Translations under genes and position numbers: made by a program
Virus record (IMG/VR): IMGVR_UViG_3300017963_000103
Span: 1-44,603 of that record
Source of the DNA: a virus
DNA: 44,603 bases
Strand: one strand, 5' to 3'
Part shown: positions 11,876 to 28,363 of the stretch, one piece after another
Numbering within the stretch: position 1 is the stretch's first letter
Layout of the letters: each line of letters starts with the position of its first letter
The notes under the pieces: model-generated
What the model saw: only the letters and a program-made list of their open reading frames with translations
What the model was told of the DNA's origin: nothing
Databases searched by the model: none

Positions 11876-12784
11876 TTAAGCACCTTCTGAGCCGTAAAGC
11901 CCTCGCCAGTCGCCAATTGTGAAACTATAACGCTCGTATGCTTTCTTTTTGATATTGTCAGTGTCAAAGTCACCGTCAACACCAAATTCAAGAGCAACAC
12001 GATCAAAACCAACCATTCCAGAAGGAGCATTTGTTCTGATGAACCATGCGTCAGTATCTGTTAGAAATGGGTTAATGTGGGTTTTAGGAATTACACCCAA
12101 ATCTTTTAAAGCATTTGTAGCGTTGTTTCCTGTGTCGTTCTGCAAGTTAGATTTTAGAACTCTCTGGAACTCATAAACTAATGATGTTGGGCCGATTAAA
12201 CACTGTGGCTGCAACATAATATTTAAGTCGTTTGAGTTTTGAGCGTCCATAATCTGAATAGTCAAGTCTTCGAGTGCTGCTTCACTGAAATCAGCCGCAA
12301 CTGAAAGAATGTTTGACTGCTCTGAACCAGACTTTACAGGGTGATCACTTGCAAGAATCGCTTTGCCATCTCCAAACGCGTACGAACCTGAAAACGCTCT
12401 ATTATAAAAGTTAGCTGCTACAGTGTTCTTAGTAGTTGCCATACTCAAAGCAAGGCTTGTTGTTCTACGCTTACTTACATACTCATAAAGATTGTCGTCC
12501 TTTTCTTCTTTAGTTACAATAAAACCTAAAGAATAAGCCACGTTTGTAGCTCTGTTAACAACACCCTGAGAATCAGAAGCGTATGAAGTAGCTGTTCCCT
12601 CGTTTTTCTGAGGTGCAAGAGGATAACCAGTAGCCTCAACAACTTCTTCATACTTTTTATCTGAAGATGTCATATCAAAAAGCTCTTTCCAATACTGACC
12701 ATGTTTACCGTACTCACGACCCCACCAAGCATGTATCCCCGGCCATAACGCCTTGGGGTTATTTCCTGTTGTTATAACTGACAT
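11876..12784 (-). CDS. Major capsid protein (HK97-fold family)
   Basis: 302 aa. The N-arm contains NPKALWPGIHAWWG, a hallmark of this capsid family, followed by YWKELFDM. The C-terminal half has DTDAWFIRTNAPSGMVGFDRVALEFG and ends with RYSFTIGDWRGLYGS, both characteristic of these capsid proteins. Shorter than P22 gp5 (430 aa), so it belongs to a different capsid branch despite the P22-like tail genes. It follows the scaffold and the decoration gene. The ATG at 12784 has a GGGGG ribosome site. Confidence 0.85.
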   Translation of the reverse strand: MSVITTGNNPKALWPGIHAWWGREYGKHGQYWKELFDMTSSDKKYEEVVEATGYPLAPQKNEGTATSYASDSQGVVNRATNVAYSLGFIVTKEEKDDNLYEYVSKRRTTSLALSMATTKNTVAANFYNRAFSGSYAFGDGKAILASDHPVKSGSEQSNILSVAADFSEAALEDLTIQIMDAQNSNDLNIMLQPQCLIGPTSLVYEFQRVLKSNLQNDTGNNATNALKDLGVIPKTHINPFLTDTDAWFIRTNAPSGMVGFDRVALEFGVDGDFDTDNIKKKAYERYSFTIGDWRGLYGSEGA

Positions 12785-13418: not shown

Positions 13419-13871
13419 TTATGCTTTATATTTAATATTAGCATCGAAGTGACCACGATCCTCCTTAATATCACTTGTTCCTGTTCGGAGTTGATCATCA
13501 ATCCTATCAACGCTCTTCATTTTTTCTTTCTTGTCTTCTTCATACCACTCTTTCTTGATACACATTAAGTATGCTCTAACAGGATTAGAGTTCGTCCGGG
13601 CTGTTTTATCGACAATTTTAGAAACCTTGCTACCTAAATCGGTATTTTCGTTGTCTACATCATCGCCTACTTTCCCTGTAACACCTCTCTTGTTTTGATA
13701 AACAAATACATACCCACCATCAAGAAATCTTTGAAGCTGTCCACCTACGTCATTCACCCATCGCCCTATAGAGTCGTTAGGGATTAAGCCATCTTCTACT
13801 GTCATAGACAACTTTCTTCGTCCTACTGGTACTCGTTTTTTCCTTGTTTCCTGCTTTTTGTTTCTACTCAT
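13419..13871 (-). CDS. Conserved head-module protein, unknown function
   Basis: 150 aa, very basic N-terminus, then RRKLSM and SIGRWVNDVGGQLQRFLDGGYVFV, a stretch conserved in podophage proteins between scaffold and capsid genes. The rest is charged and helical. It overlaps the scaffold stop by four bases. It could be an assembly or minor virion protein. Confidence 0.55.
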   Translation of the reverse strand: MSRNKKQETRKKRVPVGRRKLSMTVEDGLIPNDSIGRWVNDVGGQLQRFLDGGYVFVYQNKRGVTGKVGDDVDNENTDLGSKVSKIVDKTARTNSNPVRAYLMCIKKEWYEEDKKEKMKSVDRIDDQLRTGTSDIKEDRGHFDANIKYKA

Positions 13872-14620
13872 TTATTTAGCTCCCAAAATTTTTTTGCGTA
13901 TTGATCTTTATCTTTAAATAGCCCTTCTTTTATAAACTTTTCTGCGGCTGCTTTCGCTTCAGGTGGTAAGGATTTAAAATCTTTACCTTTCTTTGATGTC
14001 GTCCCGCTCGAAGGTGTTTCAACATCGGGAAAGTTCGAACGTTGCTCCCCGAAATTATCCTTAAAGACCTTCTTAACGTCTTTTTCTATCCGCTTTAGAA
14101 AGCTTTTCCTTCCTGCTGGCGTTGTATGGTCGTAATCATTAGCGTATTGCTCACCTAACATGTCAGCATATGCAGTCATCTGTTTATTGCTCTTATACCA
14201 GTCGTTCTCAGCGTTCCAGTCTATAAACTCTGGGGTTATAGATGGCGCTTTGTCTTCGTCCTTTGGTGTTTCAGGCTTTGGAAGCTTGTCAATCTTTTCT
14301 TGTATCGCTTCTACCTTGTCTGCGTCTGCCTCTTCTGCTGCGTTCCTCTGCTCTTTTTTAAGGTCTAAAACTGCACGGTCATAAGCACTCTTCTCTGTTG
14401 CGTGAATCGTCTTAATGTGCATATCTTGGAACTTATCAAGCTTTTTTTCAAGCCTTGCAATGTCCTTGACAAGCTTGCTGTTTCTTTCCTTCTGTATTGG
14501 GGCTATCTTTTCGCCGTCCTCTATGAATTGCTCTGCTGTTTTAGCGTTTGGCCCGTTATAATCAGCCTTCCAGCCTTGCGCCTCTGCTTGTTGTTCAATT
14601 GTTAAGTCTTCTGCTTCCAT
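13868..14620 (-). CDS. Scaffolding protein
   Basis: 250 aa, extremely polar (Lys, Glu, Asp, Ala) with a coiled-coil segment around residues 45-120, a Pro-rich linker (about 118-130), and a C-terminal basic amphipathic helix ending in KDQYAKKFWELNK. Such a charged C-terminal helix is what binds capsid subunits in podophage scaffolds. It lies directly before the capsid block, as gene 8 does in P22. Confidence 0.65.
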   Translation of the reverse strand: MEAEDLTIEQQAEAQGWKADYNGPNAKTAEQFIEDGEKIAPIQKERNSKLVKDIARLEKKLDKFQDMHIKTIHATEKSAYDRAVLDLKKEQRNAAEEADADKVEAIQEKIDKLPKPETPKDEDKAPSITPEFIDWNAENDWYKSNKQMTAYADMLGEQYANDYDHTTPAGRKSFLKRIEKDVKKVFKDNFGEQRSNFPDVETPSSGTTSKKGKDFKSLPPEAKAAAEKFIKEGLFKDKDQYAKKFWELNK

Positions 14621-14937
14621 TATTCCCCCTTGAAAAAACCTACTAAGTCTTGATCGTTCATTAATTTATACTCTTTACCGTCTAAACCTTCGAAAAACTG
14701 ACCTGAAAGCTTTGAGAACTCTATCTCTTGCCCTCTTTCTGGTAACTCACACTTCCAGTCACCAAATGCCATATCGGTAAAATCTACTAAAACGCCTCTT
14801 GTTTGGTTCATTCTGTCTGTTTTCTCTGTAACTGTTGCTTTAACAATTACGCTATCTTCAAATACTTCTTCTACTGGATAGGGGTAAACAATCACTTTAT
14901 ACTCAAGCGGTGTTAGCCCTGGTTTGTACTCTTCCAT
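14620..14937 (-). CDS. GroES-like co-chaperonin/virion assembly protein
   Basis: 105 aa. Its order of elements resembles GroES: an opening PLEYKVIVYPYPVE, a central TRGVLVDFTDMAFGDW, a FSKLSGQFFEG strand and an ending KEYKLMNDQDLVGFFKG that parallels the GroES tail (a hydroxylated strand followed by DIL-AIV). GroES is 97 aa. A mobile-loop-like stretch lies at about 30-45. It sits between portal and scaffold, suggesting help in folding capsid or portal proteins with host GroEL. The assignment is by pattern, not by search. Confidence 0.5.
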   Translation of the reverse strand: MEEYKPGLTPLEYKVIVYPYPVEEVFEDSVIVKATVTEKTDRMNQTRGVLVDFTDMAFGDWKCELPERGQEIEFSKLSGQFFEGLDGKEYKLMNDQDLVGFFKGE

Positions 14938-17214: not shown

Positions 17215-18555
17215 TTAATAACCACCGTATTTACTTCTCCCTTCGGTATAGTTATCCCTATATTCGTTATACTCGTTTTCTGTACTGTTGTAAATAGTAA
17301 ACATTATTGTACATAAATATTGTAGAGCATCGTGTATGTGTGAAAACTTGTTCTTTTTTGGTTCCGGGTGATAATACCCTGTTTTCCCGATCTCCGGAAA
17401 GTGATAACCACCCTCAAAGCCAGCGATAGTTACAGCGCAATCTATATCAATCTGCATTGCTGCAACACCCTTGTATATTCTTGTTAACCTACCCGTTACA
17501 GACTCACGCCTTACCTTGAATGTTTGTATTCCATCTTCTAATATCAAACCAAGCTCCTCACGCATATACATTGCAGGTGATTTTTTTTGACTGTCTCTGA
17601 TTCTTCCGCCTGGATCTCCAATGTCTCTAAATTCAGCCTGACCAAATTCGTCTTCACACCATCTAAGGACTTCCATACTAAAGTCTATTATACCAATATC
17701 TTCACCGCAAAACTCTTTTAAAACGTACAAAACACCGCTTGTATTTATGTAGCAAACGATACATGCAGGAGATAGCCCGGTATTATCCCAACCTCTTATA
17801 ATTTCACGCCCGGCCTTCACCCCTTCTTTTGCGAATGGTAAAAGTTTCTGGTCTGCAACGTGCAATTTTCTCGAAAAGTCAGGATAAACAACTTTGCCGT
17901 CAAATGCTTCATAAAAAGAGCAATAATATTCTTGATTAAAAAGTGCTATGCCTCTTGTTTCTCCGTATTCGTCTATTAACTCTTGTTTCTCTTGGTCGAG
18001 TGTTTTCTCATCAAAAACATTTGTTTCTTCTACAGTAAGCAATTCGGAGAACCAGTCCTCTCTTGTTACTGAAGCATCATAAAGCTTTTTACCGTGGTTC
18101 TCGCCTCTTGGTGTGTAAATAAAGAAGGCCCACCCACCATTCTCAGCAAGTATCGGCCTCAAATAAGCCCAGGCTTTAGGGTCGGCAACTGCAAACTCTG
18201 AGAATATCAAGCCATATGGTGGTGTTCCGATAAGACTATTATAATTATCTGAGCCTACAACCTGCCACGTAGAACCATTAATAAATGTTATAGCCATTTC
18301 CTGATTTCGTGTTCTGCTTCTTATTGCGTGTGGGAATGCTTCATCTATTCTTAACAATCCGGTGTGAGGGTTTACGGCTTCCCAAATAGCTTTCCTTGCT
18401 TGTGTTGCCTCCGGTAGCATGTGCCAGTACATAGCTGGCTTTTGCATTGCTGCTGTTGCTGCGTAGTGCAGGCAAAGGTCGTCTTTTCCTGCTCTACGAT
18501 GCCAAACAGCTACGCCACGCTTGCCGCCTTGCTCCATGTATTTCCATAGGGGCAT
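17215..18555 (-). CDS. Terminase large subunit
   Basis: 446 aa from the ATG at 18555. Walker A-type HRRAGKD at residues 19-25, Walker B LIFSE at 116-120, coupling motif STP-like IYTPRGENHG at 147-155. The nuclease half has RGWDNTGLSPA, DIGDPGGR and HIHDALQYL, giving the acidic residues of the RNase H-like fold. This ATG lies after the adenine-binding Q motif: the coding frame continues upstream as NNWKPRDYQ to codon 18604-18606, right after the TGA of the 65-aa gene. The true start is therefore probably the ATT at 18603, another non-standard codon, or a readthrough product. It cuts and pumps DNA into the head. Confidence 0.85.
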   Translation of the reverse strand: MPLWKYMEQGGKRGVAVWHRRAGKDDLCLHYAATAAMQKPAMYWHMLPEATQARKAIWEAVNPHTGLLRIDEAFPHAIRSRTRNQEMAITFINGSTWQVVGSDNYNSLIGTPPYGLIFSEFAVADPKAWAYLRPILAENGGWAFFIYTPRGENHGKKLYDASVTREDWFSELLTVEETNVFDEKTLDQEKQELIDEYGETRGIALFNQEYYCSFYEAFDGKVVYPDFSRKLHVADQKLLPFAKEGVKAGREIIRGWDNTGLSPACIVCYINTSGVLYVLKEFCGEDIGIIDFSMEVLRWCEDEFGQAEFRDIGDPGGRIRDSQKKSPAMYMREELGLILEDGIQTFKVRRESVTGRLTRIYKGVAAMQIDIDCAVTIAGFEGGYHFPEIGKTGYYHPEPKKNKFSHIHDALQYLCTIMFTIYNSTENEYNEYRDNYTEGRSKYGGY

Positions 18556-18606
18556 TTGGTAGTCTCGTGGCTTCCAGTTATTTGGGAGTGTTATGTCGAT
18601 AATTAA

Positions 18607-18804
18607 TCACCAATTAGGGTTTTTATTACAACATCCACAACGGTTGTAATTCTTTTCATATTCAAGTTGTTGTTCTAATCTCTTTACCCTTCGCCTTAAA
18701 TGGTCGGCTTCGGTCGCGTTCTCTTGAAACTTTAATTCATCTTGCCACCACTTTTTTATTCCAGGCCATAATACTTTTGCTGTTCCTGTTTTTATAACCC
18801 CCAT
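18607..18804 (-). CDS. 65-aa protein with capsid N-arm mimic and coiled coil
   Basis: 65 aa with a strong AGGAGG ribosome site. Residues 1-22 read M-VI-TG---K-LWPGI--WW, nearly the same as the N-arm of the major capsid protein of this phage (about 13 identities in 24). It continues with an ETDHLRRRVKRLEQQLE-type coiled coil and ends in a Cys-rich tail (CGCCNKN). The TGA stop at 18607-18609 is in frame with the terminase coding sequence downstream. No known function; it could be an assembly modulator that competes with or docks on capsid subunits. Confidence 0.7.
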   Translation of the reverse strand: MGVIKTGTAKVLWPGIKKWWQDELKFQENATEADHLRRRVKRLEQQLEYEKNYNRCGCCNKNPNW

Positions 18805-18890
18805 TTATACCTCCTACTATTTAAGTCTCCACCCCGTGAGAGAGTGAGATTAAGCTACTGTTATTTATGTAAATATGAAATCAGCTGTTT

Positions 18891-19076
18891 TTATGCTTTT
18901 GCGCTACCAAAGGCTCCAACCCAATCTTCTTTTTGCGCTCTACCAGTAAACTTGTCTTTATGTACTACAAACTTAATAGTCGAGCCGTTCTTTAGTATCC
19001 ACTCTTCGCCTTGTTCCTCTTTTTCGTTAAGGATATCAGCAAGGCATCTCAACGACTTCTCATTAAATTCTTTCAT
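18891..19076 (-). CDS. Hypothetical protein between terminase subunits
   Basis: 61 aa, charged, with KNGSTIKFVVHKDKFTGRAQKEDWVGAFG in its second half, which looks like a small beta hairpin region. The ATG at 19076 overlaps the small terminase stop (ATGA) and has an AGGAGG site. It is transcribed between the small terminase and the capsid-arm mimic. Function unknown. Confidence 0.6.
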   Translation of the reverse strand: MKEFNEKSLRCLADILNEKEEQGEEWILKNGSTIKFVVHKDKFTGRAQKEDWVGAFGSAKA

Positions 19077-19435
19077 TTCTCCTCCTGCTCTGAATATCTG
19101 ACAATATTTACATTAACGCCTCCTGATTGTTCAAGCTCTTGTTTATCCTTCCATTCAAAGTTATTTTTCAGGTTGAATATAACGCCTGTAACCGTGTTTC
19201 CAAACAGCTTTTGTTCGAGATACGCCTCTATATATGCCTTAGCTCTTTTTATTGTGGGGAAAAACTCGCCTCTTGATTGATAGTTTGTTATAGTTTTTCT
19301 GTCTACGTCAAGGAAGTACGCAAGCCCTGAAACCGTTGGGTGCTCTTTCTCTTCTTTGCATTCCTCAAAGTATAAATGGCACATACCGTCAAGGTCTAAG
19401 CAGTTGTTAAATTTTAATGGCCTACCCCCTGCCAT
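19073..19435 (-). CDS. Terminase small subunit
   Basis: 120 aa. It starts AGGRPLKF, then a helix-turn-helix region PTVSGLAYFLDVDRKTITNYQ (residues about 35-55), then FFPTIKRAKAYIEAYLEQKLFG and TGVIFNLKNNFEWKDKQE. This pattern is characteristic of small terminases that recognise the packaging site. It precedes the large subunit by two small genes. An AGGAGG ribosome site is visible before the ATG at 19435. Confidence 0.8.
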   Translation of the reverse strand: MAGGRPLKFNNCLDLDGMCHLYFEECKEEKEHPTVSGLAYFLDVDRKTITNYQSRGEFFPTIKRAKAYIEAYLEQKLFGNTVTGVIFNLKNNFEWKDKQELEQSGGVNVNIVRYSEQEEK

Positions 19436-19444
19436 AAGTACCTC

Positions 19445-19609
19445 CTACTCTTCGAAGTCTACCTCTTCCATAAAATAATTATATTCCTTGCCTTTGTTTT
19501 TATCTGCGTGTTTTTCTATATTTTTTAGCGCTACTTTTTCGTTAGGGCATACACATATAACTCCCCTTTGCGCTGTAGCGACAACAAACACTGTTTTATC
19601 TTCGCCCAT
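19445..19609 (-). CDS. Hypothetical 54-aa protein
   Basis: Reads MGEDKTVFVVATAQRGVICV then an acidic tail ending in MEEVDFEE. One Cys pair (CVC) at residues 19-21. A GAGAGA sequence precedes the ATG at 19609. It sits directly upstream of the small terminase. The acidic end could suggest a protein-binding tail, but no family is recognised. Confidence 0.5.
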   Translation of the reverse strand: MGEDKTVFVVATAQRGVICVCPNEKVALKNIEKHADKNKGKEYNYFMEEVDFEE

Positions 19610-28277: not shown

Positions 28278-28289
28278 AAATTGTTTTTG

Positions 28290-28363
28290 CACCTGAGTGG
28301 GACTCGAACCCACGACCCAAGAGTTTTAATCTTGTTGCTCTTACCAACTGAGCTATACTGGCG
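28290..28363 (-). tRNA. tRNA-like gene, apparent anticodon AAA (Phe?)
   Basis: Minus strand: D-arm GCTC-AGTTGGTAA-GAGC, anticodon arm CAAGA-TTAAAAC-TCTTG, T-arm GTGGG-TTCGAGT-CCCAC, total 74 nt. Acceptor CGCCAGT pairs with TCAGGTG at only five of seven positions (A-A and T-T mismatches). There is one extra base before the D-stem and one before the anticodon stem. U33 is present and the loop reads anticodon AAA, a very rare Phe reading. No CCA is encoded. A degenerating tRNA or an unusual functional one. Confidence 0.55.

Follow-up and report, generated by a model that had tools for sequence, protein, structure and literature searches.

A copy of the major capsid protein N-arm encoded by a short open reading frame between the terminase genes of a viral genome

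Based on comparison of protein sequences, we have identified a 65-aa open reading frame (ORF) in a packaging operon whose first 20 or so residues are a bona fide copy of the N-terminus of the phage's own major capsid protein (MCP). The encoded polypeptide would consist of a copy of the MCP N-arm fused to a short, cysteine-tipped coiled coil, apparently inserted between the genes for the small and the large terminase (terS and terL). We tentatively propose that it is a translated accessory protein acting in head assembly, the synthesis of which is probably coupled to that of TerL, a reading that we consider to be somewhat short of probable. The analysis covers a stretch of viral DNA of 44,603 nucleotides, referred to as the window, in which the following elements are compared:

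18607-18804, minus strand: 65-aa ORF, made up of a copied MCP N-arm, a coiled coil and the CGCC tip and ending in a TGA stop; its translation (18804-18607) is MGVIKTGTAKVLWPGIKKWWQDELKFQENATEADHLRRRVKRLEQQLEYEKNYNRCGCCNKNPNW
18733-18804, minus strand: N-arm segment of the 65-aa ORF, MGVIKTGTAKVLWPGIKKWWQDEL (residues 1-24), with homology to residues 1-24 of the MCP
18664-18726, minus strand: coiled-coil segment, residues 27-47, QENATEADHLRRRVKRLEQQL, from the heptad score and the helix model
18628-18639, minus strand: CGCC tip, residues 56-59, from the translation
11876-12784, minus strand: major capsid protein, HK97 fold, Mu gpT-like, from matches to PHROG major head proteins and a model
12713-12784, minus strand: N-arm of the MCP, residues 1-24, from BLASTP and the model

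The original prediction had put the likeness of the two N-termini at about 13 of 24 positions and named its loss under proper alignment statistics as a way for the idea to fail. The likeness withstands such statistics, since 14 of the 24 N-terminal columns are identical with a single gap (BLASTP, single comparison, E = 3e-7). With the MCP as query against the whole 44.6-kb record, the MCP itself and the 65-aa ORF are the only matches (tblastn, one genome, E = 0.004). With an HMM built from the N-arms of 85 MCPs the ORF obtains 30.2 bits; in searches of all six-frame ORFs from the window and the collected loci (27,632 ORFs, then 44,290) its E-values are 4e-7 to 8e-7, and the best other non-capsid ORF reaches an E-value of 0.29 or worse. 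The pairwise and profile E-values together thus argue that the resemblance is not due to chance. The residues K11, L13, W14, P15 and G16, at least 90% conserved in 41 MCPs, are all present in the 65-aa ORF, which carries the N-arm motif of its MCP lineage as recognised by the HMM. The similarity ends at the WW motif, as indicated by the absence of G22 and Y25, two MCP-conserved residues just past the arm. Elsewhere among the loci, an ORF of L137 (2217-2768) has an internal MGVIMTGSNPEAL stretch with a weak, probably fortuitous likeness to the capsid arm (E 0.29).

Beyond the arm, the coiled coil and the Cys-rich tip that had been described from the sequence are both present. The heptad score of the tail was equalled in none of 5000 shuffles and is reached by one of the 362 window ORFs of 40-90 aa, presumably the 65-aa ORF itself, and the CGCC motif is evident from the translation. 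A single-sequence AlphaFold2 model predicts one helix spanning residues 13-54 (mean pLDDT 71), in which the arm helix runs on into the coiled coil. By codon use the arm resembles a gene (0.38), whereas the tail is weakly supported (-0.12); taken as a whole, the ORF ranks in the top 4% of out-of-frame ORFs, a rank carried by the arm. Pfam and PHROG gave no match above threshold for the ORF, known scaffold families included, a search with the tail alone found nothing, and PDB matches comprised only unrelated coiled coils such as syntaxin. An identity as PspB was considered and rejected, the Pfam match being weak, below the cutoff and confined to the coiled coil.

The capsid protein from which the arm can be recognised is established as an HK97-fold protein by its PHROG matches, a sub-threshold match to Pfam Mu gpT and a structural model (pLDDT 87.5) that matches the capsids of D3, SaPI1/80alpha and HK97. 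In this model residues 1-10 are of low confidence and residues 14-27 form the arm helix. The N-terminal arm of such Mu gpT-like/HK97-fold MCPs is homologous to the 65-aa protein, whereas the HK97 fold itself (P-domain, A-domain, E-loop) is absent from the latter, which has a single predicted helix and a likeness that stops at WW. A candidate partner of the 65-aa protein is encoded in the same module:

13868-14620, minus strand: helical protein of 250 aa encoded between portal and MCP, the position of a scaffold, from its position and sequence character; no family match in Pfam or PHROG

In the same part of the genome, an ORF at 14620-14937 (minus strand), between the portal and the scaffold-type genes, resembles GroES (Cpn10) with a Pfam E-value of 0.0095, which is below the cutoff. 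A co-chaperonin is annotated at the same position in MW202785 and MW202796, so that head modules of this group may commonly include a phage GroES.

Structural knowledge of other phages points to a site at which a detached arm could operate. In phage 80alpha the C-terminus of the scaffold packs on the N-arm helix of the MCP (PMC5644958), a scaffold/N-arm contact that has been generalised to P22 and phi29, and the placement of the N-arm helix on the backbone helix has been compared with the helices of the D3 and HK97 scaffolds (PMC12749128). A protein that starts as an N-arm helix and continues as a coiled coil is plausible as a competitor or adaptor at the scaffold-capsid site. The 65-aa protein would most likely act in head assembly at the MCP N-arm site, where N-arm, P-domain and scaffold meet. 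It may dock on the P-domain or the backbone helix of the MCP as the N-arm does or, alternatively, be gripped by the end of the scaffold with which the N-arm is normally recognised. Through its coiled coil the protein is expected to oligomerise and would thereby tune nucleation, scaffold release or shell geometry. A more far-reaching version, in which the detached N-arm has become a coiled-coil assembly factor translationally coupled to the packaging ATPase, such that motor and arm competitor would be produced jointly and their ratio would set the transition from procapsid to packaging, appears improbable to us.

Known head-assembly systems are similar in part. The capsid-protein homolog Ccm of SaPIbov5 redirects the assembly of phi12 (PMC8569155) and, like the 65-aa ORF, represents an additional gene of capsid-protein origin with a presumed role in head assembly. 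Ccm, a satellite gene product, is however a complete HK97-fold subunit, whereas the 65-aa protein is no full-length capsid homolog, contains the arm only and belongs to the phage's own genes. SaPI1 CpmB, the 80alpha scaffold and the 65-aa protein are all small and helical and are thought to work at the MCP N-arm/P-domain site (PMC5644958). CpmB is a competitor of the scaffold for the capsid (PMC5644958), while what has been copied in the 65-aa protein is the arm of the capsid protein. Our literature search on phage capsid-fragment inhibitors and on non-canonical TerL starts found nothing relevant. The homology is real and unusual, is seen in one lineage and has two live explanations. If functional, it would represent a phage that regulates its own head assembly by a free-standing arm of its capsid protein, akin in principle to the satellite capsid homologs but pared down to the element that contacts the scaffold, and it would offer a small, testable handle on the coordination of N-arm, scaffold and packaging. 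If not functional, it documents the birth of an orphan gene via the capture of a capsid fragment.

The pair of capsid protein and arm peptide, which the original prediction expected to recur in related phages, was not encountered elsewhere. Searches of phage records and of viral contigs for relatives of the 65-aa protein returned only capsid proteins, and scans of phage and bacterial genome contigs returned no match in one round and in a later one prophage-type loci, in which the arm HMM detected no second short copy. Among 221 loci and sequences searched with the same HMM, none outside the window has a second arm. Exactly one arm match occurs in 34 of 43 whole records of relatives, each in an MCP frame of 300-330 aa, and two occur in none. 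The idea of a capsid-arm mimic is thus upheld as far as a separate small protein with a statistically supported arm is concerned, but not in its expectation that relatives carry such a peptide; the functions proposed with it, a procapsid maturation switch, a docking tag for the packaging motor or an inhibitor of assembly, are candidate roles. This absence is weak evidence because the collections hold no close relative: the nearest TerL is 62% identical and the nearest MCP 59%. The gene could be common in the phage's own unsampled lineage.

The DNA of the arm informs on its age. Between the 65-aa ORF and the MCP gene, 46 of the 72 aligned bases are identical, and at the ten identical positions that are neither Met nor Trp the same codon is used six times, compared to 3.8 expected by chance given the codon use of the phage (P = 0.13). 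The synonymous sites are therefore near random and the copy was not made recently from this MCP. Indeed, blastn finds just a 16-nt match between the two genes and their upstream regions differ, which rules out a recent duplication of the window's own MCP. At the DNA level the arm is at least as near to the MCP arms of other phages, e.g., L116. It derives either from an old partial duplication with the amino acids kept or from the capsid gene of another phage. Since the amino acids have been retained despite near-random codons, selection on the 65-aa protein is plausible. The same data bear on the possibility that illegitimate recombination placed the 5' end of an MCP gene before terL and that the ORF is a functionless, decaying relic. 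Its occurrence in one phage only and the codon use of the tail, which is not gene-like, are in line with such an origin. Yet, the near-random codon agreement with the MCP implies a long divergence over which the conserved arm residues have persisted, and the reading frame, the Shine-Dalgarno sequence and the heptads have survived as well, so that we regard a relic as unlikely though worth serious consideration.

The surroundings of the ORF were analyzed as well. On the minus strand the order is terS, a 61-aa ORF, the 65-aa ORF, terL, portal and the head genes up to the MCP, with the 65-aa ORF adjoining terL on its upstream side:

19073-19435, minus strand: small terminase terS (Pfam GP3_package, E 4e-19; phrog_606, E 1e-22)
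18891-19076, minus strand: 61-aa ORF between terS and terL, with a sub-threshold Pfam match only and no match among phages
18808-18818, minus strand: Shine-Dalgarno sequence AGTAGGAGGTA of the 65-aa ORF, from direct repeat D1
18607-18611, minus strand: GGTGA, a possible terL Shine-Dalgarno sequence overlapping the stop of the 65-aa ORF, proposed from the sequence
18607-18609, minus strand: stop codon (TGA) that closes the 65-aa ORF, in the reading frame of TerL
17215-18600, minus strand: large terminase terL, probable start ATC at 18600-18598, IDITLPNNWKPRDYQ..., from alignment with relatives and phrog_2 (E 3e-14)

In relatives terL follows almost directly after terS, so that the 61-aa and 65-aa ORFs look inserted and the region resembles a lineage-specific insertion. 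The sequence AGTAGGAGGTA otherwise occurs only upstream of terS (19439-19449), and no promoter above chance was detected upstream of the 65-aa ORF. The mechanically called terL ORF begins at ATG 18555, which would remove the conserved LPNNWKPRDYQ from TerL. The TerL proteins of relatives open with MDITLPYNY or MNITLPYNY; the corresponding sequence here is IDITLPNNW, with ATC at the position of their Met, and the stretch from the TGA to ATG 18555 is devoid of ATG, GTG and TTG. The ATC is located 6 nt past the GGTGA. The simplest reading of this arrangement is that TerL starts at the ATC and is coupled to the 65-aa ORF; a sequence error at the ATC base is conceivable. As the stop of the 65-aa ORF is located where ribosome binding for terL begins, its translation is probably coupled to that of TerL.

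In coupled leader ORFs the stop codon overlaps the downstream ribosome-binding region. The stop of the 65-aa ORF likewise overlaps the putative ribosome-binding region of terL, and the ORF differs from such leaders by its domain fragment; to our knowledge, leader ORFs are normally devoid of a conserved domain fragment. It might accordingly be asked whether the ORF mainly delivers ribosomes to the ATC start of terL by termination-reinitiation, its amino acids mattering little. The strong Shine-Dalgarno sequence before the ORF, the lack of a canonical start at the conserved N-terminus of TerL and the ATC 6 nt after a stop-overlapping GGTGA all fit this explanation. It requires neither a conserved capsid arm nor a coiled coil, however, both of which are better than chance, and relatives do without a leader. 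We therefore judge a purely translational role to be unlikely as well, at about the level of the relic; a leader and a protein role may both be true simultaneously.

The 65-aa ORF and TerL share one frame (...NPNW-stop-LIIDITLPNNWKPRDYQMPLW...), a relation that, like the missing canonical start of TerL, had been overlooked earlier. The frame is interrupted by the TGA and 17 sense codons separate this stop from the first ATG of terL. Readthrough of the TGA, or a sequence error, would thus yield a TerL with an N-terminal capsid arm, by which the motor would dock to the procapsid. The Met right at the conserved motif in relatives' TerL and the position of the stop, just where the TerL Shine-Dalgarno sequence would be, argue against such an extension. 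Moreover, the standard code leaves long genes of the window uninterrupted, for instance that of the 717-aa portal, indicating that TGA is not generally sense, and the RNA structure at the stop is not special with respect to readthrough (z = -0.42). We consider this extension very unlikely.

The same holds, to a slightly greater degree, for a role as decoy for capsid-sensing host defences of the CapRel or Thoeris types, or as inhibitor of heterologous phages with related capsids. Capsid sensing by host defences is known, as described in PMC12578639, and the accessory location and the capsid-derived motif are all that speaks for this role, while there is no sign that the arm is the sensed part and the ORF lies in the packaging operon, not among early genes. 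Finally, a resemblance of short tryptophan-rich stretches by chance or convergence could appeal to a matched region of just about 24 residues, but is nearly discounted by the profile E-value of about 8e-7, by matches beginning at residue 1 in both proteins and by a gap confined to a variable spot.

Two further observations concern the window at large. At the DNA level, a search for relatives of the packaging region found nothing beyond a 176-nt stretch of terS (19073-19250, minus strand) that is 71.5% identical to Pseudoalteromonas phage H6/1. This phage has a different capsid and its TerL directly overlaps TerS, which suggests that terS has been exchanged as a module. In addition, a predicted tRNA-Phe at 28289-28363 (minus strand) carries the anticodon AAA, the usual one being GAA.
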